Part shown: positions 1,583 through 24,271 of the stretch, piece by piece
Position numbering within the stretch: the stretch's first letter is position 1
How the letters are laid out: each line of letters opens with the position of its first letter
Source: Bacteroidales bacterium
GTDB lineage: Bacteria; Bacteroidota; Bacteroidia; Bacteroidales; P3
Reading direction: 5' to 3'
NCBI GenBank assembly: GCA_017545365.1
Contig: JAFWOP010000016.1
Coordinates: forward strand, 1 to 29,110
DNA: 29,110 bases
The notes under the pieces: generated by a model
Databases searched by the model: none
Told to the model about the DNA's origin: nothing
The model's input: only the letters and a program-made list of their open reading frames with translations
Program-made: the position numbers and the translations under genes

Positions 1583-1634
1583 TCAACCGCGCCGACTGCC
1601 GCTTGTCACTCTAATCAGACTTACGGTAATCACC

Positions 1635-3626: not shown

Positions 3627-3682
3627 AGCATGAGGGATATAGGGTTTAAAGGGACTAGGGGCACTATAGAGTGTATGGTGGT

Positions 3683-4756
3683 TTATGATTCTTCGGCGTT
3701 GTCGTCGGGGAGGTCGATGACCTTGAAGCGCGACTGGCGCTGGTGCCAGCGGTCGAGGGCCAGCTGCCGCATGTCGGCCACATCGTCGCGCTCGTCCATA
3801 ATCTCCAGGCCGACGATGGTCTCGATGATGTCTTCGAGGGTGATGATGCCTTGGAAACTGCCGTATTCGTCGATGACGCAGGCGATGTGCTGCTTGTTGC
3901 GGAGCATGGAGTCCCAGATTTCTGACACGGGGAGCTTCTCGCCATACATGGCTATGTCGCGTTTGATTTCGCCGAGGGTCATGTTGAACTTGTCCTCGGT
4001 GAGCAGCTCGAGGGCCTCGCTGCGGAGGACGTAGCCTGTGATGTACTCGTCGGAGTCGCTATAGACGGGAATGCGGGAAAAGTGGGAGAAGGCCTTGTCG
4101 CGGTAGAACTCTTTGAGCGTCATACCTTCCTGAGCGATGGCAGCCACGGTGGTGGGGGTCATCACGTCCTCGGCCTTGACATCGTCGAGCTTGATGACGT
4201 TCTGGATGATTTTGTTCTCGTCCTCGTCGATAACCTCCTCGTCCTCGGCCATATCGGCCATGGCGGCGACCTCCTCGCGGCTGACGGCGGCTTCCTCGTC
4301 ATCGGTGTCGGAGATGGTGTTGGAGAGTTTCTCCACCACCCACACGATGGGGAAGAGCAGCACAATGAGGAGCCGGAGGGTGTAGGCGGTGAAACCCATG
4401 AGCTTTTTCCAGTGATGGGTGCCGATGGTCTTGGGGATGATTTCGGCGAAGACCAGTATGAGGATGGTGGTGATGGCAGAGACGAGGCCGAACCAATGGC
4501 TGCCGAAGAGCTCGGTGGCCTGTGCGCCCACACCTGCAGCACCGATGGTGTTGGCGATGGTGTTGAGCGAGAGTATTGCGGCGATGGGTCGGGCGTTGTC
4601 GGTCTTGTATCGTTTGAAACGGGTGGCAGGTTTGTATCCTTCGTCTTCGCGCATGTTCACATACGACAGAGGGGTGGACATGAGTGCCGACTCCAATATC
4701 GAGCAGATGAACGATATGGACATTGCACCAAGGAGGAATATGAGTAAAAGGGTCAT
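3683..4756 (-). CDS. CNNM/DUF21 membrane protein with CBS pair (hemolysin/CorC-like)
   Basis: 357 residues. An N-terminal DUF21/CNNM transmembrane domain (about 1-150) with three to four hydrophobic helices contains the family-typical EIIPKTIG motif. An acidic linker (about 150-185) leads to a CBS-domain pair (about 195-320) with DVMTP at its start and DEYGSFQGIITLEDI, the usual end of the second CBS domain. The CorC_HlyC domain often found at the C-terminus is absent: only ~35 residues follow the CBS pair. Family members are linked to Mg2+ or other divalent cation transport or sensing in the inner membrane; the substrate here is unknown. It sits between the galactosidase (63-base gap) and the PNGase gene (56-base gap) on the same strand; its role in that context is not obvious. 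Confidence 0.9.
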   Translation of the reverse strand: MTLLLIFLLGAMSISFICSILESALMSTPLSYVNMREDEGYKPATRFKRYKTDNARPIAAILSLNTIANTIGAAGVGAQATELFGSHWFGLVSAITTILILVFAEIIPKTIGTHHWKKLMGFTAYTLRLLIVLLFPIVWVVEKLSNTISDTDDEEAAVSREEVAAMADMAEDEEVIDEDENKIIQNVIKLDDVKAEDVMTPTTVAAIAQEGMTLKEFYRDKAFSHFSRIPVYSDSDEYITGYVLRSEALELLTEDKFNMTLGEIKRDIAMYGEKLPVSEIWDSMLRNKQHIACVIDEYGSFQGIITLEDIIETIVGLEIMDERDDVADMRQLALDRWHQRQSRFKVIDLPDDNAEES

Positions 4757-4764
4757 TTGTGGTT

Positions 4765-4804
4765 GTGTGAATGTTTTATTGTGTTACTGTGTGATTCTTT
4801 GACT
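4765..4804 (+). repeat. 8-bp-period intergenic repeat (between galactosidase and CNNM genes)
   Basis: Successive 8-mers GTGTGAAT, GTTTTATT, GTGTTACT, GTGTGATT and a diverged CTTTGACT fill most of the 63-base gap. They belong to the same family as the NNGTTAAT-type arrays near 9.85, 17.2 and 17.6 kb. Confidence 0.6.
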
Positions 4805-4819
4805 ATCAAATTAATGTAT

Positions 4820-8845
<4,026 letters not shown>

Positions 8846-8853
8846 CTACTCAA

Positions 8854-9822
8854 ATGATAGGGCTTATAATACGCACAACAGGCAGCTGGTACAAGGTGCT
8901 GCCAACCGAGGGAGGGACGGTGGTGGACTGCCGTCTGCGAGGCAATTACCGTCTGCGAGGCAACAAGCAGACGAACCCTGTGGCAGTGGGCGACAAGGTG
9001 GATGTGACGCTACAGGAGGATGGCACGGGGGTAATCATGGAGGTCCACGACCGGCGCAACTATATTGTGCGCAAAGCGACCAAACTCAGCAAGCAGACCC
9101 ACGTCATAGCAGCCAATATCGACAGCCTCTGCATTGTGGCCACACTGGGGTTTCCCCGCACCTCGACAGGCTTTATCGACCGTCTGCTGGTCACCGCCGA
9201 GGCTTACCACATCCCTGCCCGCATCATCTTCAACAAGACCGACCTTTATGGTGAGGAGGAAGATTTGTGGGGACTGCACAACGAGCTGAAAGACATCTAT
9301 GAGAAAGTGGGTTATCCCGTTCATGCCGTCAGTGCCCTCAAGGGCGACGGCGTGGAGGAATTGCGCGAGGTGATTGCCGGACGCACCGTACTCTTCACCG
9401 GGCATTCGGGCGTAGGCAAGTCGGCCTTGCTCAACGCGTTGGTGCCGGGGTTGAACCTACGTGTGGGCGAAGTGAGTGAGTGGAGCTTGAAGGGCAAGCA
9501 CACCACCACCTTTGCCGAGATATTCCCCATCGAACTCCCCTGCCCTACCCCTCAGCCAGAGTCACCGCAACTCACCTACCTGATTGACACCCCCGGCATC
9601 AAGGAGTTCGGCATGGTGGACTTCAAGCCGGAGGAACTGTCGCACTTTTTCCCCGAGATGCGCGAGGTGCTGCACGACTGCTATTTCGCCAACTGCACCC
9701 ACCGCCACGAACCCCGCTGCGCCGTGAAAGAGGCCGTGGACGCAGGCACCATCAGCACCGAACGCTACAACAACTACCTAGGAATCTTCGACCAGATAGA
9801 AAGCGGCAACGAAAGTCGCTGA
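8854..9822 (+). CDS. rsgA: RsgA, small ribosomal subunit biogenesis GTPase
   Basis: 322 residues, usual length. An N-terminal OB fold (about 1-75) precedes a circularly permuted GTPase domain in which G4 NKTD (127-130) comes before G1 GHSGVGKS (183-190) and G3 DTPG (245-248). This order is the hallmark of RsgA/YjeQ. A C-terminal zinc finger uses C276, C281, H283 and C289. The protein checks late maturation of the 30S subunit and is released from it by GTP hydrolysis. It stands alone on the plus strand, divergent from the galactosidase, with its own promoter and a very short leader. No clear intrinsic terminator follows; the downstream gap holds 8-bp-period repeats. Confidence 0.97.
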   Translation: MIGLIIRTTGSWYKVLPTEGGTVVDCRLRGNYRLRGNKQTNPVAVGDKVDVTLQEDGTGVIMEVHDRRNYIVRKATKLSKQTHVIAANIDSLCIVATLGFPRTSTGFIDRLLVTAEAYHIPARIIFNKTDLYGEEEDLWGLHNELKDIYEKVGYPVHAVSALKGDGVEELREVIAGRTVLFTGHSGVGKSALLNALVPGLNLRVGEVSEWSLKGKHTTTFAEIFPIELPCPTPQPESPQLTYLIDTPGIKEFGMVDFKPEELSHFFPEMREVLHDCYFANCTHRHEPRCAVKEAVDAGTISTERYNNYLGIFDQIESGNESR

Positions 9823-9842
9823 AGAAGGAGCAATTTGTGATT

Positions 9843-9942
9843 GTGTGAATTCGTTATTGCGTTAGTCTCTTTTTGATTGTGTTAATTCGTTAGTCGCTGG
9901 CGCATCGAAAGGCCAACGCATTTACACATTAACACACTTACG
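9843..9942. repeat. 8-bp-period repeats in both orientations downstream of rsgA
   Basis: GTGTGAAT TCGTTATT GCGTTAGT (9843-9866) and GTGTTAAT TCGTTAGT (9879-9894) are followed, in the opposite orientation, by units including ATTAACAC (9928-9935). GTGTTAAT at 9879-9886 and ATTAACAC are exact complements and could form the base of an imperfect hairpin. The rest of 9823-9948 has no other feature I can see. The array lies between the 3' ends of rsgA and the converging defence operon. Confidence 0.6.
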
Positions 9943-9948
9943 TATTCC

Positions 9949-10089
9949 CTAAGGTCTTTCCCAAGTGACAGTTATGTTCGACCAGATGAGTGACTCTAGT
10001 TCATCCTGTGCTGATATCGGAAAAATCCTACGTTCATCATACAAGGAGATTTCTACCAATTGGATTGTATCTCTTAAAGACACTGTCAT
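9949..10089 (-). CDS. Putative 46-residue small protein, last ORF of the defence operon
   Basis: This short ORF starts with an ATG that overlaps the TGA stop of the preceding gene (ATGA), an arrangement typical of translational coupling. It begins MTVSLRDTIQLVEISLYDER and ends TVTWERP, then stops with TAG. It has no signal peptide, no membrane segment and no motif I recognise; it is rich in Glu, Leu, Ile and Ser. The alternative is that it is the C-terminus of the preceding ORF separated by a frameshift. The low-GC composition is shared with its neighbours. The evidence for coding is positional only. Confidence 0.4.
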   Translation of the reverse strand: MTVSLRDTIQLVEISLYDERRIFPISAQDELESLIWSNITVTWERP

Positions 10090-10448
10090 TGATGCATTTG
10101 CAGCAGCTCCTCCCATGTGGCAAACCATGGCGAAGTGGTCTGTTTGCCTCGACCAAGGGCGTTAACATTGGTGTAGTCTTTCGACTGGGTTGTGTCAAAG
10201 GTATAAACCAAATAATAGTCATGCCCCAAAGAGTTGAAGCCTTTCTTCTGCAAGGCCTCTCTTGACATGAATCGTGGCCCAACACCTTTTAGTTTGAACA
10301 AGGTGCCGTTTGTGCCGTTATGGAGCATCACATATTTGGCATTCAACGCTCTTGGAGGCAGCACAATGGAACCTGCATCCTCGCCTGTACGCAGATAGCA
10401 CAACCCGAGTTCTTTCATTTTGGCAAACTTGTCCTTGTTGGGATTCAT
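10086..10448 (-). CDS. Hypothetical protein downstream of the HpaII-type endonuclease
   Basis: About 120 residues from the ATG at 10448, 17 bases after the endonuclease stop; a TTG at 10475 would add nine residues and overlap the endonuclease gene. I do not recognise the family. It is soluble and basic, with a beta-rich look around LNAKYVMLHNGTNGTLFKLK and HDYYLVYTF, ending in WFATWEELLQ. Its place as the penultimate ORF of a restriction-modification operon suggests an accessory role, such as a specificity, control or antidote function; that is inference from position only. Confidence 0.65.
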   Translation of the reverse strand: MNPNKDKFAKMKELGLCYLRTGEDAGSIVLPPRALNAKYVMLHNGTNGTLFKLKGVGPRFMSREALQKKGFNSLGHDYYLVYTFDTTQSKDYTNVNALGRGKQTTSPWFATWEELLQMHQ

Positions 10449-10465
10449 TAAGGAATAGATGTCCG

Positions 10466-11548
10466 TTATTTGCAAAAACGTATTTGTAAGTTTAATTTAA
10501 TGTACACTTTCCCGTCATTGCCACGATAAAGAGTGCCAAAGTGGTGACGGCTACGGCTACCGCGCTCAAAGCGAGTATTGTGGTAAAGGTAATCTTCTAC
10601 ATCATTGCGATTATAGAAGTGATAGCACACAATTTCGCCATCGCGGCGTACTACTAGATAGCCACCATTGGCATCATATCGACCTTTCCATTCCTTTGCG
10701 GGTGTCATTCCAAGGGCGGCATCGAGAAGCAACACTTTCATCTTGTGTTCATAGAAAGCCTTAATATCACTGCCAGTGAAACCGAATGGATTCTGATTCG
10801 CCACAATTTCCACGGCCTCGCTTATTTTCGAAGTCGAGTTAGGCATACTGTCGCAGATAAGACAGGCAGCAATGAATTCGGGCATGTAAGTGTCAAGAAA
10901 CAGCAAGTTGTTTTTGAACGTATTATGCTCAATGCCAGAATATCTCAGTTTGTAGCCATTCTTGACTAGAGCCTCCATGCGTGGCATGTGGTCTTCGATG
11001 TTGTTGTATGCGACAATCTCAGCATCCGTCATTTTCTTGCCAGAAACAAGGTAACGGATATTGGTTGCCTCGGTAGCGTTGAGTAGTGTGGAAGCACTTC
11101 CAAGTTGCGACTTTATGCTGAAACCAAGCAGCGGGGTCATATTGGTGCGTAGGTCGTGAATGACAATGTGGATATCTGCCTTATCTTTAGATGGCGCCTT
11201 GAGCTTTCTGCAGCCTATTTTGCTCATAAAACATTCCGCACTTGGAACAGCAAATGAGCGTTGATTGGTTTCTTTAATTGCATCAAGCAACGATTTAGAT
11301 TCGGACATAAACTTGTCCATTGAGATTCGCGCGTATTCGTGTCCGTCTTCGTCAATTACGACAATGTTTTTGCTTTGATTTGGCTTGTATTCGTAACGAT
11401 TACTTTCTTCACGGATGATGTTGATAATAGGATAGTAGAGGTCCAACTTGTTTAGGTTGGCATCGCCAGCATGAACAATGCCCTCGCCAAGCAAGCGGAA
11501 AAGGGTGTATATTTCGCTCCACTCTCCTTTATTTCCTGTTATTGCCAT
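10466..11548 (-). CDS. HpaII-family type II restriction endonuclease
   Basis: 360 residues, very close to the length of R.HpaII (358). The start MAITGNKGEWSEIYTLFRLL and the following LNKLDLYYPIINIIREE match my memory of the HpaII endonuclease family, which cuts CCGG. The central segment DIHIVIHDLRTN...LLGFSIKSQLG looks like a nuclease core (acidic residue, then xSIKSQ). The gene starts six bases after the stop of the C5-cytosine methyltransferase, the expected partner protecting the same site. CCGG specificity is inferred from family membership, not shown by the sequence. It is essentially uninterrupted, with no frameshift or stop, so probably functional. Confidence 0.82.
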   Translation of the reverse strand: MAITGNKGEWSEIYTLFRLLGEGIVHAGDANLNKLDLYYPIINIIREESNRYEYKPNQSKNIVVIDEDGHEYARISMDKFMSESKSLLDAIKETNQRSFAVPSAECFMSKIGCRKLKAPSKDKADIHIVIHDLRTNMTPLLGFSIKSQLGSASTLLNATEATNIRYLVSGKKMTDAEIVAYNNIEDHMPRMEALVKNGYKLRYSGIEHNTFKNNLLFLDTYMPEFIAACLICDSMPNSTSKISEAVEIVANQNPFGFTGSDIKAFYEHKMKVLLLDAALGMTPAKEWKGRYDANGGYLVVRRDGEIVCYHFYNRNDVEDYLYHNTRFERGSRSRHHFGTLYRGNDGKVYIKLNLQIRFCK

Positions 11549-11554
11549 AGTTAT

Positions 11555-12892
11555 TTATACTAGTCCTAAAACTTTTAATTCTTCTTCAGCGGTGGCTTGA
11601 ATTGCCGGGATTGCAACCGAGTTGCCAAACTGTTTGTATGCAGAAGCGTCGGCCACAACAATTTTAAATTCGTCAGGAAAACCTTGTAACCTTGCCCATT
11701 CTCTTGGGGTCATTTTTCGTATACCATCTCTATTGACTTCCCCCTTAATATTAGTAATGGGGGTGAAATTAGTTAGCCTTTTGTCTATTATGAGATTACA
11801 CTCTCTACCCATCCCTCCGACAACAATTGCGTTTGCCACTCCGTTAATGTCTATAATTTTATATCCGAATCCGTGACCAGCTGCTTCATGGCGTTCTTTG
11901 TGACGGATGAGCGTCTCAATATAGGTTGTCGATAAATAGTATTTTACCGATACTTCTTTTTTCTCCATTACATCACGGAACTTGGGGCGTTTCTTTCCAG
12001 TAGTTGTGGGTTCTGGGTAGTGAAACCGAGATATATCAATATGCAAATCTTTGCGAAATCCTATGATATATATTCGCTCTCGGTGCTGTGGAACACCATA
12101 ATCCATTGCATTAAGAATTTTGGGAGGAACCACATCATAACCAGCATCATCCAAGTGGGTCAATATCGTTTCCAATGTGCGACCACGATCGTGAATCGCA
12201 AGACCCTTAACATTCTCTAAAAAGAATGCTTTTGGCTGACGTTTACGCAAAATATCTTCTATTTCAAAGAATAATGTGCCGCGCGTTTCATCCTTAAACC
12301 CAAGCCGTTTGCCCGCCATAGAGAATGCTTGACAAGGAAATCCTCCACAAAGTATATCAAATTTCTTAGGAATATAACTCTTTGTCGATTCTTTTGTAAT
12401 GTCTCCAAAAGGCATTTCCCCATAGTTGGCGAGATAAGTTTCCTGTGCTTTAGCGTCAATTTCGGATGAATAGACACATTTTCCACCGAGATTTTGCATT
12501 GCTATACGAAAACCACCAATTCCTGCGAAAAGGTCAATGAATGTGAATTTTGGTTTTTCAGGGGCAGGGAAAGGCACATCAAAGAATTGCGAGAAAAGAG
12601 CATATTGGGCAGGATTTTCAGCAACAGAAAGAATGTCATCGTCTGTTAGTGTATCAACGACAATCATTTGTCGAAACTCTTTGCGTGAAAGAAACTCGCG
12701 AATAACTTCAATGATTTCTTTTTGCTCTTTTTGTGTCAGTCTCTTATGCTTGTTGTGCAGAAAATGACTTAATACAGCCATTTGATTCTCGTATGAGGTT
12801 TCACCGTAAAATTTCACTCCGAAGTCATTAACTATCTTTTCCTCTTCAGGGAAATCTATAAGTGATGTGTTTACTTTATTACTTATCTTCAT
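11555..12892 (-). CDS. C5-cytosine DNA methyltransferase (HpaII partner)
   Basis: 445 residues. A ~110-residue N-terminal extension precedes the catalytic domain. Motif I is DLFAGIGGF, motif IV is GGFPCQAFS with catalytic C187, motif VI is ENVKGL, motif VIII is QHRER, and the C-terminus has MTPREWARLQGFPD and YKQFGNSVAIPAI (motifs IX-X). It transfers a methyl group from S-adenosylmethionine to carbon 5 of cytosine. Pairing with an HpaII-type nuclease six bases downstream suggests CCGG as the site, probably at the inner C; this is inference. The N-terminal extension (with LTQKEQKEIIEVIREFL) may be a DNA-binding or regulatory part. It starts one base after the stop of the adenine methyltransferase gene. 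Confidence 0.96.
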   Translation of the reverse strand: MKISNKVNTSLIDFPEEEKIVNDFGVKFYGETSYENQMAVLSHFLHNKHKRLTQKEQKEIIEVIREFLSRKEFRQMIVVDTLTDDDILSVAENPAQYALFSQFFDVPFPAPEKPKFTFIDLFAGIGGFRIAMQNLGGKCVYSSEIDAKAQETYLANYGEMPFGDITKESTKSYIPKKFDILCGGFPCQAFSMAGKRLGFKDETRGTLFFEIEDILRKRQPKAFFLENVKGLAIHDRGRTLETILTHLDDAGYDVVPPKILNAMDYGVPQHRERIYIIGFRKDLHIDISRFHYPEPTTTGKKRPKFRDVMEKKEVSVKYYLSTTYIETLIRHKERHEAAGHGFGYKIIDINGVANAIVVGGMGRECNLIIDKRLTNFTPITNIKGEVNRDGIRKMTPREWARLQGFPDEFKIVVADASAYKQFGNSVAIPAIQATAEEELKVLGLV

Positions 12893-12893
12893 T

Positions 12894-13778
12894 TTATTCT
12901 GTTATGGGTTCAATCATAATACTTTTACTATGAGTCCTTCTTATTTCAAGTTTTTCTGGAAAGAACAGGCTTGGAGAATGTGTTAGTAATTCGTATCCAA
13001 TTTGTTTTCTTTTTACTGTGTATTTCAAAGGAAATCTATATAATTCTAAATTTGTATACAAATTTCTTATTTGAGGTACATCATCATAAGATAATACCCA
13101 ATTAAAATGTGCCTCATTCTGAAGAAAGTGAGATAGTTCTTCGTGATTCTTATCAGTATAATGATTCATATACAAACTTTTCCCTTTCACATAATATGGG
13201 GGATCCAAATATACAAATGTATTTTCTTCTATGTGTCTCAAAAAAAACAAGGCATCTTCATTAGAAATTTTAATTTGATTTTTCTTGGTGGCGATGACTT
13301 CGAGTCGATGAATCAGGTCTTGCTTATTAAAACGACAATCTATTGTATATTTTGCATTTCTTTGTTTTTCCTCTGTGGACCCTCCAATTGGTCCGCCATA
13401 TATAACGCCAGAACGATTGGTTCTCGACATGAAAAATGTTGCAACACCTAATTCAAAAGAAGGGTTATTTGTCTCTAGTAATACGGATCTTTGTTTATAC
13501 CATTCTTTCAAAGTAACGGGAATATTATAGATGGCTTGAATAAATCTAGTTGGTTCGTTTATGAGTGCATTCCAAAAAGAAAAAATCCCATTATTTGCAT
13601 CATTGATTAATATTTCATTTACATGACCTCTCAAAAGAAGATTGATTGCTGCACCAGCACCTCCTGCGTATGGTTCTGCATACACTATTTCATGCAATCT
13701 ATTCTGGTGAAATAGATCGACGAAGAAATTAGTCATTAACGACTTTCCCCCAGGGTACCTGAGTGGGCTACTATTCAT
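12894..13778 (-). CDS. D12-class N6-adenine DNA methyltransferase (Dam-like)
   Basis: 294 residues. It starts MNSSPLRYPGGKS, the N-terminal signature of D12-class (MethyltransfD12) enzymes. Motif I is YAEPYAGGAGAAINLL, followed by INDAN, and the catalytic motif is DPPY at 192-195 (FVYLDPPYY). It would methylate adenine N6 using S-adenosylmethionine; the target site cannot be read from the sequence. Its start overlaps the stop of the ParB/Srx-like gene by eight bases, so the two are probably translated together. Both are markedly more AT-rich than the genes on either side. It may be a partner of the ParB-like protein rather than of the HpaII-type nuclease. Confidence 0.93.
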   Translation of the reverse strand: MNSSPLRYPGGKSLMTNFFVDLFHQNRLHEIVYAEPYAGGAGAAINLLLRGHVNEILINDANNGIFSFWNALINEPTRFIQAIYNIPVTLKEWYKQRSVLLETNNPSFELGVATFFMSRTNRSGVIYGGPIGGSTEEKQRNAKYTIDCRFNKQDLIHRLEVIATKKNQIKISNEDALFFLRHIEENTFVYLDPPYYVKGKSLYMNHYTDKNHEELSHFLQNEAHFNWVLSYDDVPQIRNLYTNLELYRFPLKYTVKRKQIGYELLTHSPSLFFPEKLEIRRTHSKSIMIEPITE

Positions 13779-15246
13779 TTTGAGTACTGTTTTCTCTTAT
13801 ATCAACTAAAACTTCAAATAAAGGGAATAGAAAATCCCAAAAACGATTAAGGAATTGCCTTTCTAGATATACAGTATCTTTACTGTGCTGGTAGCCGTTT
13901 AATACATCGAGACAAAATTCATTTTCATTGTTAATTAACCTAACAATTATCGAATTGGCTTTTGGCTTTTTTGCTTTTAATCTGTCCGCGATGAAATCCA
14001 ACCGATGATGCAAAGTAATATCTCTGATATTTTTTTGTTTTTGAGCCTGTATATCAGATATCAAATCTTCTGTTTGTAACCAATTCAATACGGCTAAGTC
14101 TAAAAAAATACGAATTGATGCGGCAACCGCATTCTTGTATTTGGTTATTGACAAACTTTTAAGTTCATTGAAAATTCCTTGTAACCTATAGTCAGACGTA
14201 TGTATTTCATAAATAGGAAGTATTAGTTTCAATCGGTTAGGATTACCTTTAACAATCTCTTTGTTTTTTTCTTGTTTGTTATCAATGAGTTCTGTCTTGT
14301 CCTCGTGTGGAACCTCTTCAGTTTGGTCGTGTAGGGTATATGGATCTAGTATTGTTGTGTCCACTTTTGGAAGATTATCCAAAATTTCCTCCAAATTAGT
14401 AGTTATTGTTCGTGTATCAATTTGAATGCTCGGCTGTTTTTCAACAATGTTTTTGATAAGCTCGGCGTATGCCACAAGAAAACCAGATTTGTTTTTAAGT
14501 CTGACTTCTGAACCTTCAAAGTCCAATCCCCATTTTTCTTTTACCAATTTATTTGCAAAGAAACGTTCTATAATAGTAACAGGAAACTTATATGAAGTGG
14601 CATCCTTATATTGCTGTTCTGATAGAGCGTCTTTTACCTCTGGAGTTTTTATCAAATCAATCAGGCGTAGATTACGGATGGCCGTTTCTAGTTCTCCTTG
14701 GGACATGGATGATTTAGATGATAAAAGTTCCATGTTATTTCCATACTTCTTATATAGAGATTCTACCCATCTTTGTTGTTGAATTCTAGACCACCTTTGT
14801 TGCAGTGTTGACATGCTGTTCCTTTGACATATGTACCACTCCGCATCGTCAAATGAAGGTGCAACATTTACTTTTATTTTATCTACAGGTGCTCTATTCT
14901 TGGATAGGTTTCTAACATATGCTCTTATACTTTTCGGAGCTTTGCTAGGGTCATTAAGTAATTTTAAGGCAAGAACACGTCTATTGCCTTCTGCAACATA
15001 GAACTTTTGAGAAACATCATCTTTCCAAACTATGATTGGGTCTGCTGGAATATATTCAACAGCAATGGATTTTAGCAGATCAAAAAAGTGTTTTTTCTCA
15101 TATTCGTCAGCAATTAGGTCTTCTGTGAAATCTGCTAATGTTATATGTTTTTCTTCTGGGTTGAGACGCGGATTTTCATTCCATAATCTTAATTGATCTA
15201 CAGAACGGGGTGTTTTCTTCTCCAGCCACTCATATTTCTCTTCCAT
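13771..15246 (-). CDS. ParB/Srx-like N-terminal domain protein with helical C-terminal domain
   Basis: 491 residues. The N-terminal ~130 residues look like a ParB/sulfiredoxin-type fold: DQLRLWNENPRL, then PIIVWKDDVSQKFYVAEGNRRVLALKLL, where GNRR takes the place of the GERR/DGQxR motif of ParB and DUF262 proteins. A central helical region (about 130-330) may bind DNA. A charged linker (about 305-335, rich in E, K, D) leads to an all-helical C-terminal domain (about 340-485) with AASIRIFLDLAVLNWL and LNGYQHS, reminiscent of HEPN/DUF4145-like helical domains of defence proteins. No catalytic function can be assigned. It starts 17 bases after the TOPRIM gene and overlaps the adenine methyltransferase start by eight bases. 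AT-rich (about one third GC by eye) compared with ~45% for the ATPase/TOPRIM genes. Confidence 0.75.
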   Translation of the reverse strand: MEEKYEWLEKKTPRSVDQLRLWNENPRLNPEEKHITLADFTEDLIADEYEKKHFFDLLKSIAVEYIPADPIIVWKDDVSQKFYVAEGNRRVLALKLLNDPSKAPKSIRAYVRNLSKNRAPVDKIKVNVAPSFDDAEWYICQRNSMSTLQQRWSRIQQQRWVESLYKKYGNNMELLSSKSSMSQGELETAIRNLRLIDLIKTPEVKDALSEQQYKDATSYKFPVTIIERFFANKLVKEKWGLDFEGSEVRLKNKSGFLVAYAELIKNIVEKQPSIQIDTRTITTNLEEILDNLPKVDTTILDPYTLHDQTEEVPHEDKTELIDNKQEKNKEIVKGNPNRLKLILPIYEIHTSDYRLQGIFNELKSLSITKYKNAVAASIRIFLDLAVLNWLQTEDLISDIQAQKQKNIRDITLHHRLDFIADRLKAKKPKANSIIVRLINNENEFCLDVLNGYQHSKDTVYLERQFLNRFWDFLFPLFEVLVDIRENSTQNE

Positions 15247-15263
15247 AATAATTATTCTTTAAA

Positions 15264-15887
15264 TCAAAATTGTTTATAAAGAAACTCCTTCAACGGCTCC
15301 AGATATTCAGTATCCAGATTCCAGTGCTGGGGGTTCTCGTAGTTGCGGTTGCGGTCTTTGATTAGTTCCTTTTGGCTTCTTGACTTGCCCAGCAGGGTTT
15401 CAAGGTAGGCGTATATCTTGGTTTTCTTGGCTGGGATGGTCAGTGTGGGTGGGGTCTTGGTGGGTATCCGCACTTTTGTCAATTCGCCTTCGTAAGTCTG
15501 CCAGCAGTCCATCACGGGCTGGTTGTCGGGGTTGATGATGTTCTCCAACAAGTCTTCCAATGCTCCAGTATCTTTGTCGTTGGGGAGGAGAAACAGTTCA
15601 AATTCCACACCATAGGCTTCTTTTATCGCCATTAACTCGGCACGTCTCTCAGCAGGATTCTCATCGGCATCGAATATGACAAGGTTTACCCCGCCTTGGT
15701 CGGTATTCTGACGGAGTGCCTGTAGGGTTTCTTCTGACTTTAGTTTTCCCAATCCACCAGTATCATTGTTCTTCCCAGAATGGATGATGCTGTTCTCGGG
15801 TGCCTCCTCACCAAACAGATGGTGGTAGTAGTCCCGAAAGAACTTCTTGTCGGCATCGCCTTCAACGATTATCAAAAATCTCTTCAT
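15264..15887 (-). CDS. TOPRIM-like protein (DUF3226/DUF4435 type), partner of the upstream ATPase
   Basis: 207 residues. The N-terminus MKRFLIIVEGDADKKFF with E9 and the later LVIFDADEN with D73 and D75 match a TOPRIM fold (Glu followed by DxD), as found in OLD-family nucleases and in AriB of PARIS. Further on are FELFLLPNDKDTGALEDLL and a basic C-terminal half. Its ATG overlaps the stop of the ATPase gene as ATGA, so the two are translationally coupled and probably act as a complex. In the better-known systems the ATPase senses infection and the TOPRIM subunit cuts nucleic acid; that role is inferred. It is shorter than AriB, so this is a related but not identical arrangement. Confidence 0.78.
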   Translation of the reverse strand: MKRFLIIVEGDADKKFFRDYYHHLFGEEAPENSIIHSGKNNDTGGLGKLKSEETLQALRQNTDQGGVNLVIFDADENPAERRAELMAIKEAYGVEFELFLLPNDKDTGALEDLLENIINPDNQPVMDCWQTYEGELTKVRIPTKTPPTLTIPAKKTKIYAYLETLLGKSRSQKELIKDRNRNYENPQHWNLDTEYLEPLKEFLYKQF

Positions 15888-16963
15888 AGGGCAATGCTTC
15901 TAAGTTCAATATCATTTTCACAGGCACCATTTAAGCCATCGTATGTGTATTTGTAGGCCTGATAGCCTTTCTTTAGGGTGTTTTCTAAGGTGTACAACCG
16001 CATTTCATTGCGGTACTCGGGGTGCTCCTCAAGCATTTGGTTGAGTTTCTGTAGCGTCTCTTTGCTGTGGGTCGTCACAAACACCTGTTTGTTGGTACTC
16101 ACAGCAAGGGCGAAGATGGCTTCCCAAAGTTTTTTGTATGCGGAATAGTGGAGGCCGTTTTCTATCTCGTCTATCAGCAGGATATTGTTCAAGGGATTAG
16201 CCGATGCCGAAATGATGTTGAGATACCGACGGAGTCCATCACCCATCATGTTGACGGTCAGCAACTGGTCAATGCCTTCCAATCCAATGTAGGCTATGTT
16301 GTTCAGTATCTCCAATGAGGTAATACGGCTGTCGAAATTCTTTAGTTGCTCAGCCACGATGCCTTTTTTCTTTCGTTTAGCCAGTTCAACCAAATCATTT
16401 GCAGTATTGCCAGCTGCCAAGTCGGAGGAAAGAAAAGCTGCACTGTTTTTCTCTAAATACCCCTCGGCAAGTTTCTTATCTGAAATCAAGCCTTGTTGGT
16501 TGACAGTGATGCTGCTCACATAGTCCTCTTTCTGCTGTCCAGACTCAACGCTGAAGAATAATCTCAGCGTATTAAGAAACGTCTTCGTCTCGGATGTAGG
16601 GATATGTCCGTTTTGCGAGTCTGATTGTGACTTCTTGTCAAAAACGTAGGTCATATTTAGTTCCAGCTCACGTTTGCTGCCATCGTTCATCTCTGCAGCA
16701 ATTCTCGGCACCTCTTTCCAGTCATAGTTGTGAAACAGATAGAACAGGTCTGCAAAACCACTGAAGTTGCGCGACCTGATGGAATTGATGGTTTGAGGCA
16801 GGTCGGGGTTGGACATTCCCATCAGTAGTAACAGACATTCGAGCACAGAACTTTTGCCGGAACTGTTCTGTCCGAGAAAGACGTTGACGCGCGAGAAAGC
16901 ATCAATCTTTAGGTGGCCGATACCTCTGAAGTTATTGATTTCAATATTTTTAAAGCCGTCCAT
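15884..16963 (-). CDS. OLD/PARIS-like AAA (ABC-type) ATPase
   Basis: About 359 residues from the ATG at 16963. A longer frame from a TTG at 17008 is unlikely, because that codon sits inside the apparent -7 box. The start MDGFKNIEINNFRGIGHLKI is typical of SMC/OLD-like ATPases. Walker A is GQNSSGKS at 31-38; Walker B is ILLIDEIENGLH; a switch His lies in VFVTTHSKE. An inserted middle region between the two halves of the ATPase has no clear motif. The layout fits the AAA_15/AAA_21 ATPases of split OLD-like systems such as PARIS (AriA). It is the first gene of the defence operon, 112 bases beyond the tRNA-Arg gene, and is coupled to the TOPRIM-like gene by ATGA. Confidence 0.85.
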   Translation of the reverse strand: MDGFKNIEINNFRGIGHLKIDAFSRVNVFLGQNSSGKSSVLECLLLLMGMSNPDLPQTINSIRSRNFSGFADLFYLFHNYDWKEVPRIAAEMNDGSKRELELNMTYVFDKKSQSDSQNGHIPTSETKTFLNTLRLFFSVESGQQKEDYVSSITVNQQGLISDKKLAEGYLEKNSAAFLSSDLAAGNTANDLVELAKRKKKGIVAEQLKNFDSRITSLEILNNIAYIGLEGIDQLLTVNMMGDGLRRYLNIISASANPLNNILLIDEIENGLHYSAYKKLWEAIFALAVSTNKQVFVTTHSKETLQKLNQMLEEHPEYRNEMRLYTLENTLKKGYQAYKYTYDGLNGACENDIELRSIAL

Positions 16964-17005
16964 AGCGGTTATATTTATATATACATGCACATAAGTATGC
17001 AAATG

Positions 17006-17013
17006 CAAAAATA
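17006..17013 (-). promoter_or_regulatory. -7 box of the defence-operon promoter
   Basis: TATTTTTG on the minus strand fits TAnnTTTG and lies 42 bases before the ATPase ATG. No good TTTG is found 19-21 bases upstream, so the promoter is incomplete by consensus. Confidence 0.45.
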
Positions 17014-17036
17014 CGATTTTTTTTTTATTTAAGAGG

Positions 17037-17074
17037 AAAAAATAAAGCCCGGCCTACATGCAGTGCCGGGCTTT
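17037..17074 (-). terminator. Rho-independent terminator of the tRNA-Arg gene
   Basis: A 10-bp stem (AAAGCCCGGC with GCCGGGCTTT) and an 11-base loop are followed on the minus strand by ATTTTTT. It starts two bases after the tRNA and separates it from the defence operon. Confidence 0.88.
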
Positions 17075-17075
17075 G

Positions 17076-17147
17076 TACTCCGACCGGGAATCGAACCCGG
17101 ATCTACTCTTTAGGAGAGAGTTATTCTATCCATTGAACTATCAGAGC
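17076..17147 (-). tRNA. tRNA-Arg, anticodon CCU
   Basis: The minus strand folds into a full cloverleaf: acceptor GCTCTGA with TCGGAGT (two G-U pairs), D stem GTTC/GAAT, anticodon stem ACTCT/AGAGT with loop CTCCTAA giving anticodon CCT, and T arm CCGGG-TTCGATT-CCCGG. The discriminator base is A and CCA is not encoded. It reads AGG codons. Confidence 0.96.
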
Positions 17148-17156
17148 TTTTGGATT

Positions 17157-17260
17157 GTGTGAATTCGTTAATGTGTTGAATCAATGCTTGAATGTGTTAA
17201 TGCGTTAATTCGTTAATGTGTTAATCCTTTTTGAAGGTGTTAGTTCGTTAATGTGTTAGT
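17157..17260 (+). repeat. 8-bp-period NNGTTAAT repeat array
   Basis: Units include GTGTGAAT, TCGTTAAT, then GTGTTAAT GCGTTAAT TCGTTAAT GTGTTAAT in perfect register (17194-17225) and GTGTTAGT TCGTTAAT GTGTTAGT (17237-17260). The array reaches into the last codons of the four-helix-bundle gene, so its C-terminus KLTH and stop come from repeat sequence. Confidence 0.75.
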
Positions 17261-17610
17261 TTCTGTTTGACAGTTATTGCAGAGGAGTTCAGCATTTTGT
17301 ATAGTTCCTCTACTTGGCTGCTCAGTTGGGTGTATCGTTCGTTGTCTAGGTAGTTGCTATCATGTAGCAGGTCAAGCCAGAATGATGTTTCGTTTGCTTC
17401 TTTAATAGAAATAGACACTTTGTGTATAAAGTCTTGAGGACTTTCGGCACAGACGGCTTCGCAGTAGTTTGCACCGATGCTTGTTCCAGACTTAAGGATT
17501 TGTTTAGACATGATGTATTCCCCCTTCTCACGAAGTTCATTGCAAAGGGCGATTACGCCTAATGCAAACTGCTTACTCTTATCATACAACACGCCTTGCG
17601 TCTTCATCAT
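17248..17610 (-). CDS. Four-helix-bundle protein (23S rRNA intervening-sequence protein family)
   Basis: 120 residues, the usual length for this family. Typical motifs are a helix with FALGVIALCNELR, then ILKSGTSIGANYCEA with the family's conserved SxGANxxEA, then FIHKVSISIKEANETSFWLDLL, and a last amphipathic helix. Members form small all-helical, probably oligomeric proteins. Some are encoded in intervening sequences of 23S rRNA genes, but most, as here, stand alone, and the function is unknown. Two ATGs (17610, 17607) are possible starts. The gene sits between the tRNA-Arg and infB and is flanked by oppositely oriented 8-bp-period repeats, which may mark it as a small insertion. Confidence 0.88.
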   Translation of the reverse strand: MMKTQGVLYDKSKQFALGVIALCNELREKGEYIMSKQILKSGTSIGANYCEAVCAESPQDFIHKVSISIKEANETSFWLDLLHDSNYLDNERYTQLSSQVEELYKMLNSSAITVKQKLTH

Positions 17611-17618
17611 CTACAATG

Positions 17619-17658
17619 ATTCACGAATTAACACATTTACACGTTAACACATTCATTA
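17619..17658 (-). repeat. 8-bp-period repeat array, inverted orientation
   Basis: ATTCACGA ATTAACAC ATTTACAC GTTAACAC ATTCATTA run in register. They are the reverse complement of the units at 17157-17260 and fill the gap between the four-helix-bundle start and the infB stop, touching the infB stop codon. Confidence 0.72.
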
Positions 17659-20600
17659 CAGTTTCCTTTTGATTTCAATAATCTCGTAGGCTTCGACGAT
17701 GTCGCCGACTTTGATGTCGTTGAAGCCTTCAATGTTCAGGCCGCAGTCTTGTCCGCTGACCACTTCTTTGACGTCGTCCTTGAAGCGTTTGAGGGAGGCC
17801 AGCTTGCCTGTGTAGACCACGATACCGTCACGGATGACACGGACATTGTGGTTACGGGTAATCTTACCGTCCAAGCACATACAACCAGCGATGGTGCCGA
17901 CCTTGCTAATCTTGAAGGTTTCGCGGATTTCGAGGTTGGCAACGATCTTCTCCTGTGTCTCGGGCGAGAGCATGCCCTCGATAGCGTCTTTCAACTCGTT
18001 GATGGCGTCGTAGATAATGCTGTAGAGGCGGATGTCGATTTGCTCGGTCTCGGCCATCTTGCGGGCACCCACGGAGGGACGCACCTGGAAGCCTATGATG
18101 ATAGCATCGGACGATTCGGCCAGCATGACGTCGGTCTCGGTAATCTGACCCACAGCCTTGTGAATCACATTGACCTGCACCTCTTCGGTGGAGAGCTTCA
18201 GCAGTGAGTCGGAGAGGGCTTCCACAGAGCCGTCCACATCGCCCTTGACGATGATGTTGAGCTCCTTGAAGTTGCCGATGGCGATACGGCGGCCAATCTC
18301 GTCCAAGGTCATGTGCTTCTGAGTGCGCAAGCCCTGTTCGCGCTGGAGCTGGGTACGCTTGGAGGCAATATCCTTGGCTTCCTTCTCGCTCTCGGTGACG
18401 TTGAAGGTGTCGCCAGCCTGACAGGCACCTGTGAGGCCGAGCAGCAGCACGGGCTGCGAGGGACCGGCGGACATAACCTCTTGGTTACGCTCGTTGTACA
18501 TGGCACGTACACGGCCGCTGATAGCACCTGCGACGATGGGGTCGCCCTTGCGGATGGTGCCGTCCTCGACCAGCAGCTTGGCCACATAGCCACGGCCTTT
18601 GTCGAGCGAACTCTCCAACACCGTACCCTTGGCGCGCTTCTTGGGGTTGCCCTTCAGCTCCATGATGTCGGCTTGGAGGATGACCTTCTCAAGCAGTTCC
18701 TCCACATTGATACCCTTCTTGGCCGAGATGTCCTGACTCTGATACTTGCCGCCCCACTCTTCGACGAGTAGGTTCATATTGGCCAGCTCGGTCTTGATGC
18801 GGTCGGGGTCTGCACCCGGCTTATCAATTTTATTGATAGCGAAAACAATAGGCACACCAGCAGCCTGGGCGTGGTTGATAGCTTCAACGGTCTGCGGCAT
18901 GATTTTGTCATCGGCGGCGATGACGATGATGGCGATATCGGTGACCTTGGCACCACGGGCACGCATGGCGGTGAAAGCCTCGTGACCAGGGGTGTCCAAG
19001 AAGGTAATCTTACGACCTTCGGCCGTGGTGACCTCGTAAGCACCGATATGCTGGGTGATGCCGCCCGCCTCACCGGCAATGACGTTGGTCTTGCGGATGT
19101 AGTCGAGCAGGGAGGTCTTACCGTGGTCCACATGGCCCATGACCGTAATGATAGGATTGCGGGTGATGAGGTCTTCGGGGCGGTCTTCCTCCTCAATCTT
19201 GTTCAGCTCGTCGATAACGTCGGCACTGGCGAAGTTGATTTCGAAGCCGAACTCGTCGGCAATCAGCCTGATGGTCTCGGCATCGAGACGCTGGTTGATG
19301 CTGACGAAGATGCCCACGGACATGCAGGTGCTGATAATCTGGGTGACGGGCACGTTCATCATGGTGGCCAGCTCGTTGGCGGTGACGAACTCGGTCACCT
19401 GCAACGTCTTCTGGTTCTCCATCTCGGTGAGCTGCTCCTCTTCCAGACGCTGGTGCACCTTCTGGCGCTTCTCACGGTTATGCTTAGAAGTCTTAGACTT
19501 ACCCATGGGACTGAGACGGGCGAGGGTGTCGCGAATCTGCTTCTCAATTTCGTTGTCGTCAATCTCCACCTTCACGGGCTTCTTTTCTTTCTTCTTCTTC
19601 TTTTCGGAACGTTCGGCCTTTTCGCTCTTGGCGTCCGAGTCGGCCTTACGCTCTTTGTTGCCGCCCTTGGCAGGGGCCGCAGGGGTGGTCATGGCGTTGG
19701 GGTCGGGCTGAGTGGTATTGTCGCCCACCTTAACGCCCTTGTTCTTGATGCGTTTGCGTTTCTTCTTCTCAGCTGGTGAGGGCTTGGGTTTGTCGAACTG
19801 GCTGAGGTCGACCATGCCGACCAGCTTGGGTCCCTCAAGCTTCTTGTACTTGGTCTCGATAAACTCAGGAGCAGGTTTTGCCGGAGCGGCAGAGGTGGGG
19901 GCAGGGGCAGGAGCCGGCTCTGGTGCTGGTGTCGGCTGCGGAGTCTTTTCTTCCTTGGCGGGAGGCTCAGGAGCAGACTTTTTCTCCTTCTCGGCAGCAG
20001 CCGCACCCTTCTTGGCCTTTGGCTCGGTGGCCTTCTTATCCTCCTTGGCAGCGGCCGACTTTTCCTTATCGGCTTTAGACTTTTTCTTCTTATCGGGGCG
20101 CATCTTACTGTTGATGGCATCCAGGTCTATCTTCTTGATGATGCGCAGGTCGCCAACCTGTGTAGAGACAATAGTCTGAGGCTCTTCGGCGGGGGCTGGT
20201 TCTTCAGCAGGTGCCTCGCTGGGCTGGGCATCAGCAGCAGGTTCTTCGCTCACATTGGCCTCGGCCTCCTGAGGTTCGGGGGCTGGCTCCTCAACAGGCT
20301 GGGGGGCTGGCTCCTCGGGTTGGGGCGTTTCGACGGGTTCGGGTTCGGTCGGCTCGTCGGGAGTGACGGCAGTTGCGACGGGCTGGGCGGTACCCTTGTT
20401 TTCGATGGCGGAGGAGTTGTAGTTTTTTATAATCACCTCTTCGCTCTCTTCGGTCTTTTCTTCTGAATTGGCCTCAATCACCATGTTGTTACCGCTAGGG
20501 GTAATCTCGATTTTGTCGGCCTGTTCCTTCACAGCACGCTCGGATTGGAAGGCAGCAGCGACAATGTCATACTGCTCAGCAGTAAGACGCGTGTTGGGAT

Positions 20601-20712
20601 TCGTCTCCACCTGATGGCCTTTCTTAGCCAGATATTCCACCAATGTGGAAATACCCACGTTCAGCTCTGTCGCCGCTTTTTTAAGTCTTATTCCTTTAGT
20701 TTCTTCTGCCAT
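17656..20712 (-). CDS. infB: Translation initiation factor IF-2
   Basis: 1018 residues. An N-terminal IF2_N helical domain ([21 protein letters not shown]) is followed by a very long, low-complexity linker (about 70-430) that is first Pro/Glu/Ala-rich and then Lys-rich. A second IF2_N-like region lies around 430-500. The GTPase domain has G1 GHVDHGKT at 526-533, DTPGH and NKID. The C-terminal half holds the beta barrels and the initiator-tRNA-binding domain. IF-2 brings fMet-tRNA to the 30S subunit and promotes subunit joining. It is the third gene of the conserved rimP-nusA-infB operon, 95 bases after nusA. The long linker is usual in Bacteroidota. Confidence 0.98.
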
Positions 20713-20807
20713 ATTTCACTCCTTTTTAATTACTCGAAGTTTTTCTTTATCGTTGGGGCTGGGGAAGAACTTCATCCAACTTACGCCCACCCCTGTTGGC
20801 GCACGAC

Positions 20808-22121
20808 CTATTCCTCCTCTTTGGCGGGTGCAGGCTCCTCCTCTTTGGCGGGAGCTGGCTCGTCTTCTTTGGCGGGGGCCGGCTCGTCCTCGAACTCAGC
20901 CTTGAGGATACGAATCACCTCATCCACGGTCTCTTCTTCAAGGTCGGTACGGTTAATCAGGTCTTCCTTGCTGATAGCCAGGACGCTCTTGGCGGTGTCG
21001 CAGCCAATATTGACCAGCACGTCGATAATCCACTGGTCGATTTCGTCGGAGAATTCTTTCAAGTCGACATCATCCGAATCCTCGTCACCTGTACGGTAGA
21101 CATCAATGTCATAGCCCACCAACTTGCTGGCAAGCTTGATATTGCAGCCGCCCTTACCGATGGCCATGGACACTTGGTCGGGCTCCATATAGACTTCCAC
21201 TTTCTTCTCCTCGTCGTCCACTTTCAAGGAAGAAATCTTGGCGGGTGCCAAAGCACGCTGCACCATGATGTCCATACGGGGGGTATAGTTGAGCACGTCA
21301 ATATTCTCGTTGCGCAGCTCGCGGACAATGCCATGAATACGGGCGCCCTTAATGCCCACGCACGAACCCACGGGGTCGATGCGGTCGTCATACGATTCCA
21401 CTGCAATTTTGGCTCGCTCGCCCGGGATGCGGACGATATTGCGGATGGTGATAAGACCGTCGTAAATTTCCGGCACCTCGGCCTCCAACAGACGCTCCAG
21501 GAATATGGGAGAGGTACGCGAAAGGACGATGGCGGGGTTGTTGTTGCGCATCTCCACCTTCAGCACCACGGCGCGCACCGTGTCGCCCTTGCGGAAACGG
21601 TCGGAGGGAATCTGCTCGCTCTTGGGCAGCACCAGCTCAATCTTCTCCTCATCCAGAATCAGCACCTCCTTGTTCCAAGGCTGATACACCTCACCCACGA
21701 TAATCTCGCCCACTTTCTCCTTGTATTTCTGGAAGATGAGCGACTTCTCGTAATCCTGAATCTTGCTGACCAGGTTCTGACGGATGGCCAATATCTCTCG
21801 GCGGCCAAAGTCAGACATGTAGATAGGCTCCGACAACTCCTCACCTACCTCAAAGTCGGACTCAATCTTGATAGCGTCGCTGTATGCAATCTCCAAATTC
21901 TCGTCTTTCACCTGACCGTCTTCGACGATGGTGCGGTTGCGGAAAATCTCCAAGTCGCCCTTGTCAATATTCACAATGATATCGAAGTTGTCCTCGGTGC
22001 CATAGCGTTTGGCCAAGGCGGTACGGAAAACCTCCTCGAGGATGTGCATCAATGTCTCGCGGTCTATGTTTTTAAACTCTTTAAATTCCTGAAAAGAATC
22101 TATCAGATCTAGCGTCTTCAT
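20808..22121 (-). CDS. nusA: Transcription elongation/termination factor NusA
   Basis: 437 residues. The N-terminal RNA-polymerase-binding domain (about 1-130), S1 domain (about 135-200) and two KH domains (about 230-350, with DPVGSCVGIKGARI and AIGKGGCNIKLASKLVGYDIDVY) are all present. A short helical region follows, and then, instead of full acidic repeats, a tail of three copies of an 8-residue unit EPAPAKE[DE], encoded by a 24-bp tandem repeat (about 20811-20889). NusA modulates pausing, termination and antitermination. It is the second gene of rimP-nusA-infB, 58 bases after rimP. The tail may vary between strains because of the DNA repeat. Confidence 0.97.
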   Translation of the reverse strand: MKTLDLIDSFQEFKEFKNIDRETLMHILEEVFRTALAKRYGTEDNFDIIVNIDKGDLEIFRNRTIVEDGQVKDENLEIAYSDAIKIESDFEVGEELSEPIYMSDFGRREILAIRQNLVSKIQDYEKSLIFQKYKEKVGEIIVGEVYQPWNKEVLILDEEKIELVLPKSEQIPSDRFRKGDTVRAVVLKVEMRNNNPAIVLSRTSPIFLERLLEAEVPEIYDGLITIRNIVRIPGERAKIAVESYDDRIDPVGSCVGIKGARIHGIVRELRNENIDVLNYTPRMDIMVQRALAPAKISSLKVDDEEKKVEVYMEPDQVSMAIGKGGCNIKLASKLVGYDIDVYRTGDEDSDDVDLKEFSDEIDQWIIDVLVNIGCDTAKSVLAISKEDLINRTDLEEETVDEVIRILKAEFEDEPAPAKEDEPAPAKEEEPAPAKEEE

Positions 22122-22179
22122 TTGACATGTATATTATTGTTATTCTTACTATAAATCTCCGCAACTCTGCCCACGGCGG

Positions 22180-22620
22180 TTAGAAGGGCAGCACTACCTT
22201 CACGGTTTTGACATTGTCGTAGCGGAAGGTCATCTCATGGGGAGCCACTTTCTTCAGCCCCTTGGTTTTGATGACAAACTGCTCCTCGTCGGCCTCCAGA
22301 AGAGTGCCCTGGACCGCTTCGCCCTCAAAAGGCTCCACACTAAGCATGCGCCCGATATGGCGGTGATACTGGCGGGGCATCTTCAACGGGGCCTCGGCTC
22401 CGGCCGAGCTGACATTCAGTTCGAAATCCTCCTCCTCACGGTTCAGCTTGTTCTCAATCGTACGGCTCAGCTCGATGCAGTCGTCAATATTGATGCCATT
22501 GTCCCCGTCGATGTCCACAAAAATGCGGTTATCGGGGGTGATACGCATGTTTACAAGGTACTTTTCAGTGCCTTCCAGCGAATCCTTCACTATGTCTAAA
22601 ACCTTGAATTTGTCTATCAT
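22180..22620 (-). CDS. rimP: Ribosome maturation factor RimP
   Basis: 146 residues from the ATG at 22620 (MIDKFKVLDIVKDSL); a frame extended to 22626 would need a TTG start. The N-terminal alpha/beta domain has the family motif RIFVDIDGDNGINIDDCIELSR and LNVSSAGAEAPLKMPRQY (family form: VSSPGLDRPL). The C-terminal half is the SH3-like domain. RimP acts in 30S assembly. It is the first gene of the operon with nusA and infB, with a clear promoter about 43 bases upstream. Confidence 0.95.
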   Translation of the reverse strand: MIDKFKVLDIVKDSLEGTEKYLVNMRITPDNRIFVDIDGDNGINIDDCIELSRTIENKLNREEEDFELNVSSAGAEAPLKMPRQYHRHIGRMLSVEPFEGEAVQGTLLEADEEQFVIKTKGLKKVAPHEMTFRYDNVKTVKVVLPF

Positions 22621-22662
22621 AAGCAATAAAAAGGGGGACTACCGTCCCCACAATATCCGCTG

Positions 22663-22692
22663 CAAAGATACACATTTTTTTTAACATAACAA
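22663..22692 (-). promoter_or_regulatory. Promoter of the rimP-nusA-infB operon
   Basis: On the minus strand TTG (22692-22690, in CTTG) is separated by 19 bases from TATCTTTG (22670-22663). The leader contains a small GGGGA/TCCCC hairpin. Confidence 0.72.
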
Positions 22693-22748
22693 GAAAAAAC
22701 TTTCATTCTGCCTCACAATCCGTCGTTTCCCTGGCTCTAACCCGGACG

Positions 22749-23882: not shown

Positions 23883-23910
23883 AGTTCATATATTCTTTAG
23901 TTTCCGGCTG

Positions 23911-23943
23911 CAAAGATACGAATATTTTTTGACATTATGCAAA
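23911..23943 (-). promoter_or_regulatory. Bacteroidota promoter for the ATPase_2 gene
   Basis: On the minus strand TTTG (23943-23940) is separated by 21 bases from TATCTTTG (23918-23911), 28 bases before the ATG. This is a full consensus match. Confidence 0.8.
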
Positions 23944-23980
23944 CTAAATTATGTAAATTGCATAATTCTATTTGCATAAT
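23934..23980. promoter_or_regulatory. Nested 47-bp dyad, candidate operator over the -33 box
   Basis: Outer arms ATTATGCAAA (23934-23943) and TTTGCATAAT (23971-23980) are exact complements. Inner arms AATTATG (23947-23953) and CATAATT (23961-23967) are exact complements with the same centre, 23957. Together they give four half-sites of ATTATGyAAA, two in each direction. The left outer arm contains the promoter -33 box. No T tract follows on either strand, so a terminator is unlikely. Confidence 0.6.
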
Positions 23981-24186
23981 CGTATAACAATTTATTAATC
24001 TGATAATAAGGCAGACAAAAAACTCTCCATAGCACACATTATCAGCCACAACTTTCACAACACCGACAGCACAAACAAGAGTCTTAATGACCACAAATGA
24101 ACCTTTCAAAAAGAATGGACACTGGACGAACTGCACGGCGGCGGCAGTGATGCGCTTTATTTTGTGCTTCGATTTGAGGTTGCTTT

Positions 24187-24237: not shown

Positions 24238-24271
24238 GAAACAAAAGAGAATCAAATTAGAAAGACTCACG

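Follow-up and report, generated by a model that had tools for sequence, protein, structure and literature searches.

The 29,110-nucleotide stretch of Bacteroidales DNA analyzed here (contig JAFWOP010000016.1, positions 1 to 29,110; "the window") carries eight tightly packed open reading frames (ORFs) on its minus strand, at 9949-16963. We consider that this locus is probably a modular composite defence operon, in which three self-sufficient anti-phage modules are stacked behind one likely leader to give layered immunity. In reading order these are an AbiL-like ATPase-TOPRIM pair, a PD-lambda-5 pair, and an HpaII-type restriction-modification (RM) pair, with two small ORFs behind them. The parts are known; what the locus adds is the three-module set and its partly recurring architecture.

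The spacing between genes ranges from -8 to +17 bp, and two junctions are ATGA overlaps. The ATPase and TOPRIM genes share four bases (ATGA, 15884-15887), a 17-base gap separates the TOPRIM gene from the ParB-like gene, and the latter overlaps the adenine methyltransferase gene by 8. Then come gaps of 1 base before the C5 methyltransferase gene and 6 bases before the HpaII gene, a gap of 17 before ORF7 if it starts at ATG 10448 (or an overlap of 10 with the alternative TTG 10475), and a second four-base ATGA overlap between ORF7 and ORF8 (10086-10089). An earlier note on this DNA had described eight one-strand ORFs with gaps of 1-17 bases, overlaps of up to 8, and two ATGA couplings, all of which the coordinates confirm. 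Profile libraries (Pfam and PADLOC) were searched with seven of the ORFs, ORF8 being left out; because six of the eight have clear matches, the block is more than a chance run of frames. The same matches bear out the gene identities that the note had proposed (OLD-type ATPase, TOPRIM protein, ParB-like protein, adenine methyltransferase, and HpaII nuclease with C5 methyltransferase).

The leading gene (15884..16963, minus strand) encodes an AbiL-like OLD-family ABC ATPase of 359 amino acids (PADLOC AbiLi, 1.6e-64; PF13175, 6.8e-24), the AbiLi match spanning residues 20-370 of the frame counted from a TTG start. The start is most likely ATG 16963 and not TTG 17008, judging from the relatives in loci L020 and L160, which share that ATG. 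The residues that we take to be Walker A, Walker B, and the switch histidine are invariant across 10 sequences. Its partner (15264..15887, minus strand) is a putative TOPRIM nuclease of 207 amino acids that matches DUF3226 (5.3e-13) and resembles AbiLii and PDC-M38B; the match to the AbiLii profile is weak (1.7e-5), and a TOPRIM fold is predicted, with its motifs present. The pair shares with the AbiL/OLD-ABC-TOPRIM class (PARIS, Gabija, and mad3/mad4 of MADS) its two genes, their ATGA overlap, and the TOPRIM fold, and its best match is AbiLi. It differs from AbiL in its DUF3226 second gene, weakly AbiLii-like, and in heading an RM/PD-lambda-5 operon. It also departs from PARIS: the ATPase matches AriA at 3.4e-25, far below its AbiLi match, and at profile level the TOPRIM partner gave no match to AriB or DUF4435 (the domain of AriB-type TOPRIM proteins) at E 0.1. 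Likeness to MADS extends to mad3 for the ATPase (5.9e-17) and mad4 for the TOPRIM protein (5.2e-5), but not to the full mad gene set around them, as no mad profile is among the matches listed for the other five ORFs searched (for the C5 methyltransferase, the best 25 of 65). We class the pair as an AbiL-like module, one of three known two-gene modules in the locus.

The second module is PD-lambda-5. Protein A (13771..15246, minus strand) matches the PD-Lambda-5_A profile at 1.2e-167 over residues 2-485, and its predicted folds comprise a ParB-type fold (10-148), a KorB-like middle region, and a HEPN-like C-terminus (349-486). Protein B (12894..13778, minus strand) is a D12-class N6-adenine methyltransferase (PADLOC PD-Lambda-5_B, 5e-101; PF02086, 5.9e-21), the DPPY motif of which is invariant in 9 sequences. 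Vassallo et al. 2022 (PMC9519451) describe PD-lambda-5 as apparently a prophage-borne, compacted form of an RM+Abi system and report anti-phage protection by the E. coli homologue. As in that system, A and B are adjacent genes, and the PD-lambda-5 profiles are the strongest matches for both; here, however, other systems lie on both sides. The combination also recalls the HEPN MAE_28990 family, whose operons also encode a ParB nuclease and a DNA methylase (PMC3710099); in our locus, the ParB-type protein itself carries the HEPN-like domain. A scan for protein A gave 35 loci, 32 from GTDB genome contigs and 3 from viral contigs, and A and B are direct neighbours in 32 of the 35 (exceptions L005, L018, and L019). 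As separate observations, L018 (772-4373) is a variant with a second ParB-like protein between A and B, and L005 (10001-14063) one with an OLD-type ATPase in that place.

The third module is a full-length HpaII-type pair. The C5-cytosine DNA methyltransferase (11555..12892, minus strand; PF00145, 4.5e-99) has relatives that are paired with or fused to HpaII, and the HpaII-family restriction endonuclease (10466..11548, minus strand) matches PF09561 at 7.8e-127 over residues 1-359 of 359. A complete PF09561 nuclease with an adjacent C5 methyltransferase is what type II RM systems of the HpaII type look like, except that this pair is one part of a composite operon and is followed by a McrC-like tail. 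We take CCGG to be the recognition site of the family, and recognition of CCGG here would follow from family membership; the site occurs twice in the island against 10.1 expected, a rarity that is suggestive only. HpaII relatives are common (58/148 genomes). In the 12 HpaII loci examined (L014, L157-L159, and L178-L185, some of them short) the nuclease is accompanied by a C5 methyltransferase; none lies beside a clear AbiL pair, and one (L014) has a PD-lambda-5 pair within about 6 kb.

We regard the modules as self-standing because A and B are adjacent in 32 of 35 loci while AbiL is beside them in one, and because HpaII and its methyltransferase keep company in all 12 loci away from any clear AbiL pair. 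The earlier note had cast the ParB/Srx-like protein and the second methyltransferase as joiners of the flanking systems; they are instead a known two-gene system that stands by itself.

The modules also differ in ancestry. GC content at third codon positions (GC3) is 0.556 for the ATPase, 0.587 for the TOPRIM gene, 0.285 for A, 0.258 for B, 0.330 for the C5 methyltransferase, 0.479 for HpaII, and 0.562 for ORF7, with four host genes at 0.71-0.81. When the DNA was compared with that of the fetched loci, the longest matches to the AbiL part began at 16963-16964, and homology ended at 15248-15282, the 3' end of the TOPRIM gene, in L160, L020, L097, L099, L069, and others. The nearest DNA relative of the PD-lambda-5 part is L002 (for B also L020), and that of the RM part is L178. 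Protein identity to L020 is 71% for the ATPase, 60% for the TOPRIM protein, 46% for A, and 76% for B. In trees built from 35 proteins each for A and B (the window, L001-L034 without L021, and L066; L021 and L035 were dropped beforehand), A of the window groups with L002 and L001, apart from L020 and L016, whereas B groups with L020, and L001 with L016. All four cross-constraints were rejected by the approximately unbiased test (p 0.0028, 1e-65, 3e-5, and 1e-4), these p values being optimistic in that the groups were picked after the identities and trees had been seen. Since GC3 jumps, nearest relatives lie in different genomes, homology breaks off where genes end, and A and B have conflicting trees, the three-module set looks assembled rather than co-evolved.

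Among the loci searched, the full set of AbiL, PD-lambda-5, and HpaII was found once, in the window. Two other independent loci, L020 and the viral L160, also have AbiL at the head of a PD-lambda-5-type pair. With the window, this makes three unrelated loci, each with its own, different third module. The third module of L020 consists of McrB-like, SLFN, and McrC-like genes. L160, which came from a viral scan with the ATPase alignment and is identical in sequence to L161 (the two are counted once), reads ATPase (75% identical) and TOPRIM, then, after a gap of 17 bp, a distant ParB-like A (2e-10), followed by B (9e-109) and an OLD-type ATPase. The earlier note had held that occurrence of the modules together only here would speak against an integrated system: this is how the three-module set behaves in the loci searched, but not AbiL with PD-lambda-5. 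In Bacteroidales the ATPase was found in 25/393 genomes and A in 2/393 (both at 1e-20, the centre genome G001 counted), and in the family of G004 the figures are 11/399 (1e-40) and 1/399 (1e-30, the centre itself).

To place the leader more widely, we read 33 AbiL-type loci (the window, L020, L160, L067-L086, and L097-L106; several are cut by contig ends, and the six weakest genome-scan rows and 16 remote viral loci were left out). AbiL was taken to precede directly where the next same-strand gene within 110 bp is a methyltransferase, a restriction enzyme, or a PD-lambda-5-type pair. It does so in at least 7 of the 33 (the window, L020, L160, L067, L072, L079, and L098), or in 5/31 when the window and L020, identified on other grounds, are set aside; the next gene is a type I HsdR in L072 and type ISP in L079. 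No restriction or methylation gene follows directly in the other 26, some of them cut or unannotated. Here the followers are unrelated genes (for example OstA, a competence protein, and a polysaccharide deacetylase), a STAND-type protein (L097), or unannotated genes, and NPPY-motif ORFs lie nearby on the opposite strand in L083, L084, and L097. L072 (2467-12973) itself holds type I HsdM, an HsdS with a nucleotidyltransferase domain, and HsdR, AbiL being inserted between HsdS and HsdR, with an ApeA-HEPN gene on the opposite strand.

These counts bear on a rival explanation, an integrated guard, in which AbiL would monitor the DNA-modification layers and the three modules would act as one. If a phage used a DNA mimic or an anti-methylase to block PD-lambda-5 or HpaII, the ATPase would release the TOPRIM nuclease, killing the cell. 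AbiL does recur 5' of PD-lambda-5-type pairs and RM genes, and there is precedent: according to PMC12839542, the OLD-ABC/TOPRIM unit of PARIS senses the anti-restriction protein Ocr, and BREX operons carry OLD-ABC/TOPRIM and Schlafen as proposed back-up effectors. Our locus resembles such operons in combining modification and restriction genes with a suicidal OLD-ABC/TOPRIM unit. Its core is nevertheless PD-lambda-5 plus type II RM, and none of the BREX core genes (PglZ, BrxL, PglX, and others) is among the Pfam matches of the seven ORFs searched or of ten flanking ORFs. The guard idea is compatible with the recurring AbiL-before-RM theme and with these precedents, and guarding of the other modules by AbiL is possible. 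Against the modules acting as one stand the 26/33 loci just described, the differing composition and ancestry of the modules, and the free variation of the neighbours (HpaII, McrBC-like, type I, type ISP, and STAND), and we think the integrated guard unlikely. A Bacteroidales-wide version strikes us as similarly doubtful: an AbiL leader would guard a ParB-HEPN/adenine-methyltransferase core, the restriction modules behind it (HpaII, McrBC-like, or OLD-type ATPase) would be swapped like cartridges, and AbiL would sense inhibition of the core and kill the cell. If it were true, phages with broad anti-restriction proteins would still be stopped. A fixed integrated machine is not supported, and the "one integrated system" of the earlier note does not survive as a fixed unit, given AbiL without a direct RM follower in 26 of 33 loci and HpaII pairs without AbiL (0/12) or, mostly, PD-lambda-5 (1/12).

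At the other extreme, the locus could be plain defence-island clustering, with independent systems side by side, no joint function, and short gaps that reflect compact packing and transfer. PD-lambda-5 elsewhere adjoins Septu (L011), a PDC-M29-like pair (L008), NsnABC (L009), and KwaB/SLFN genes (L001); composition is mosaic; and AbiL is seldom beside PD-lambda-5 (1/35 loci, and 0/80 viral methyltransferase-B loci). Clustering without joint function does not sit well with the AbiL-then-ParB/methyltransferase order in three unrelated contexts. Nor does it fit the methyltransferase subclade of the window (with L001, L002, L016, and L020), in which the next gene (≥100 amino acids) lies within 10 bp in 4/5 members versus 1/30 other loci. 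The spacing of -4 to +1 bp in those four, where B abuts a downstream module, suggests selection for co-expression, and we judge mere clustering quite improbable. One subclade member, L001 (9989-17949), is another composite stack, in which PD-lambda-5 overlaps a gene that neighbours KwaB (Kiwa) and an SLFN-group-3 helicase, with a DUF5131 pair beyond.

Several observations weigh against the stacked, layered operon that we favour. The three-module set has been seen once, which leaves the layering without a replicate, and AbiL is beside PD-lambda-5 A in one of 35 loci (L020) and in none of the 80 viral methyltransferase-B loci kept from the scan. The tight spacing within the subclade could mean functional coupling instead of stacking. 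L110 has a fusion of a ParB-like domain with an AbiL-like ATPase, a hint that one machine can be made of such parts; this also favours the guard. In L185 (1774-4785), a 605-amino-acid P-loop ORF with a weak AbiL ATPase match (22 bits) begins 6 bp after HpaII.

Under the layered reading, the operon would be read as one transcript and the modules would work by layering rather than through physical interaction. The HpaII-type enzyme would cut DNA that lacks its C5 methylation. Protein B would mark host DNA with N6-methyladenine, and protein A may be a nucleotide-dependent sensor of unmarked or invading DNA, the HEPN effector of which would mount a toxic, RNase-type response held in check by the methylation. 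By analogy with PARIS, the AbiL ATPase would sense a phage trigger and release the TOPRIM nuclease, aborting infection if the DNA-targeting layers fail. Modules would be exchanged around a recurring order of AbiL leader, ParB/methyltransferase pair, and replaceable third module.

The first of the two small ORFs may record such an exchange. ORF7 (10086..10448, minus strand) matches the C-terminal tail of a McrC-like (DUF2357-PDDEXK_7) nuclease and is probably a gene remnant: it has no Pfam, PADLOC, or NCBIfam match, and aligns to residues 655-735 and 670-743 of the McrC-like proteins in L069 and L020 (33.4 and 22.6 bits); its longer homologues P0123 and P0124 extend upstream. An earlier third module of the McrC-like kind probably left it as a scar. 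Its composition resembles that of the AbiL genes, as would be expected if an older AbiL-to-McrBC-like operon had had its middle replaced; L069 is such an operon (ATPase-TOPRIM, two genes, McrB-like, McrC-like). Alternatively, ORF7, and with it ORF8, could be functional genes that assist the HpaII system, for example by supplying a specificity or control domain. ORF7 is an open frame with an ATG 17 bp past HpaII, and has 25 homologues of 68-208 amino acids (its own included), mostly on short contigs, some with their own start. The accessory role is nonetheless improbable, as the homology lies in the last part of a large McrC-like nuclease and the 12 HpaII loci (ORFs ≥60 amino acids) hold no ORF7 match. 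The tail also lies behind a Vsr-like start in P0135 (weak, E 0.026) and another N-terminus in P0128, P0133, and P0142, and these varied N-termini suggest repeated breakpoints at the ends of McrC-like genes. ORF8 (9949..10089, minus strand; 46 amino acids), which overlaps ORF7, has no support as a gene and matched no ORF of ≥50 amino acids in the 35 PD-lambda-5 loci.

The island is bounded by tRNA-Arg(CCT) (17075..17147, minus strand), upstream of ORF1, and by rsgA on the other side. Its GC content (10-17 kb) is 33-45%, with flanks mostly at 50-63%; the flanks dip to 43% at 17-18 kb and to 47% at 23-24 kb. After the tRNA, inspection by eye shows a GC-rich hairpin and a run of T (about 17035-17072). 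A possible but weak promoter motif, TATTTTTG (17006..17013, minus strand), which we take to be a Bacteroidota -7 element, lies 42 bases upstream of ATG 16963, and the motif is about as common in the window as chance predicts (15 seen versus 12.8). Host-flank genes include rimP, nusA, infB, GH2, and PNGase F (Pfam search of the ten flanking ORFs); together with the relatives that were found, they indicate Bacteroidales. A 23S rRNA-IVP/four-helix-bundle gene (17248-17610) stands alone between infB and the tRNA. Degenerate AT-rich repeats of the type TTAACACATTAACGAATTAACGCA, at 9832-9936, 17147-17267, and 17618-17651, border the island, the tRNA, and the four-helix-bundle gene, and are possibly a recombination or insertion signature. 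GATC is almost missing from the host flank (1-9830 and 17251-29110; 21,690 bp), with 3 seen against 71.7 expected (Markov), possibly a sign of long restriction pressure at GATC.

PADLOC has profiles for AbiL, PD-lambda-5, and type II RM as three systems in their own right. If it is true that they regularly form one cassette with a constant suicidal leader and interchangeable DNA-targeting parts, defence operons would evolve by cartridge swapping, and the cassette design may counter phage escape by anti-restriction. One prediction follows from the locus: on meeting anti-restriction proteins, the AbiL module should be triggered. The stack illustrates a way in which bacteria may build layered defences, swapping modules behind a shared "suicide" leader.

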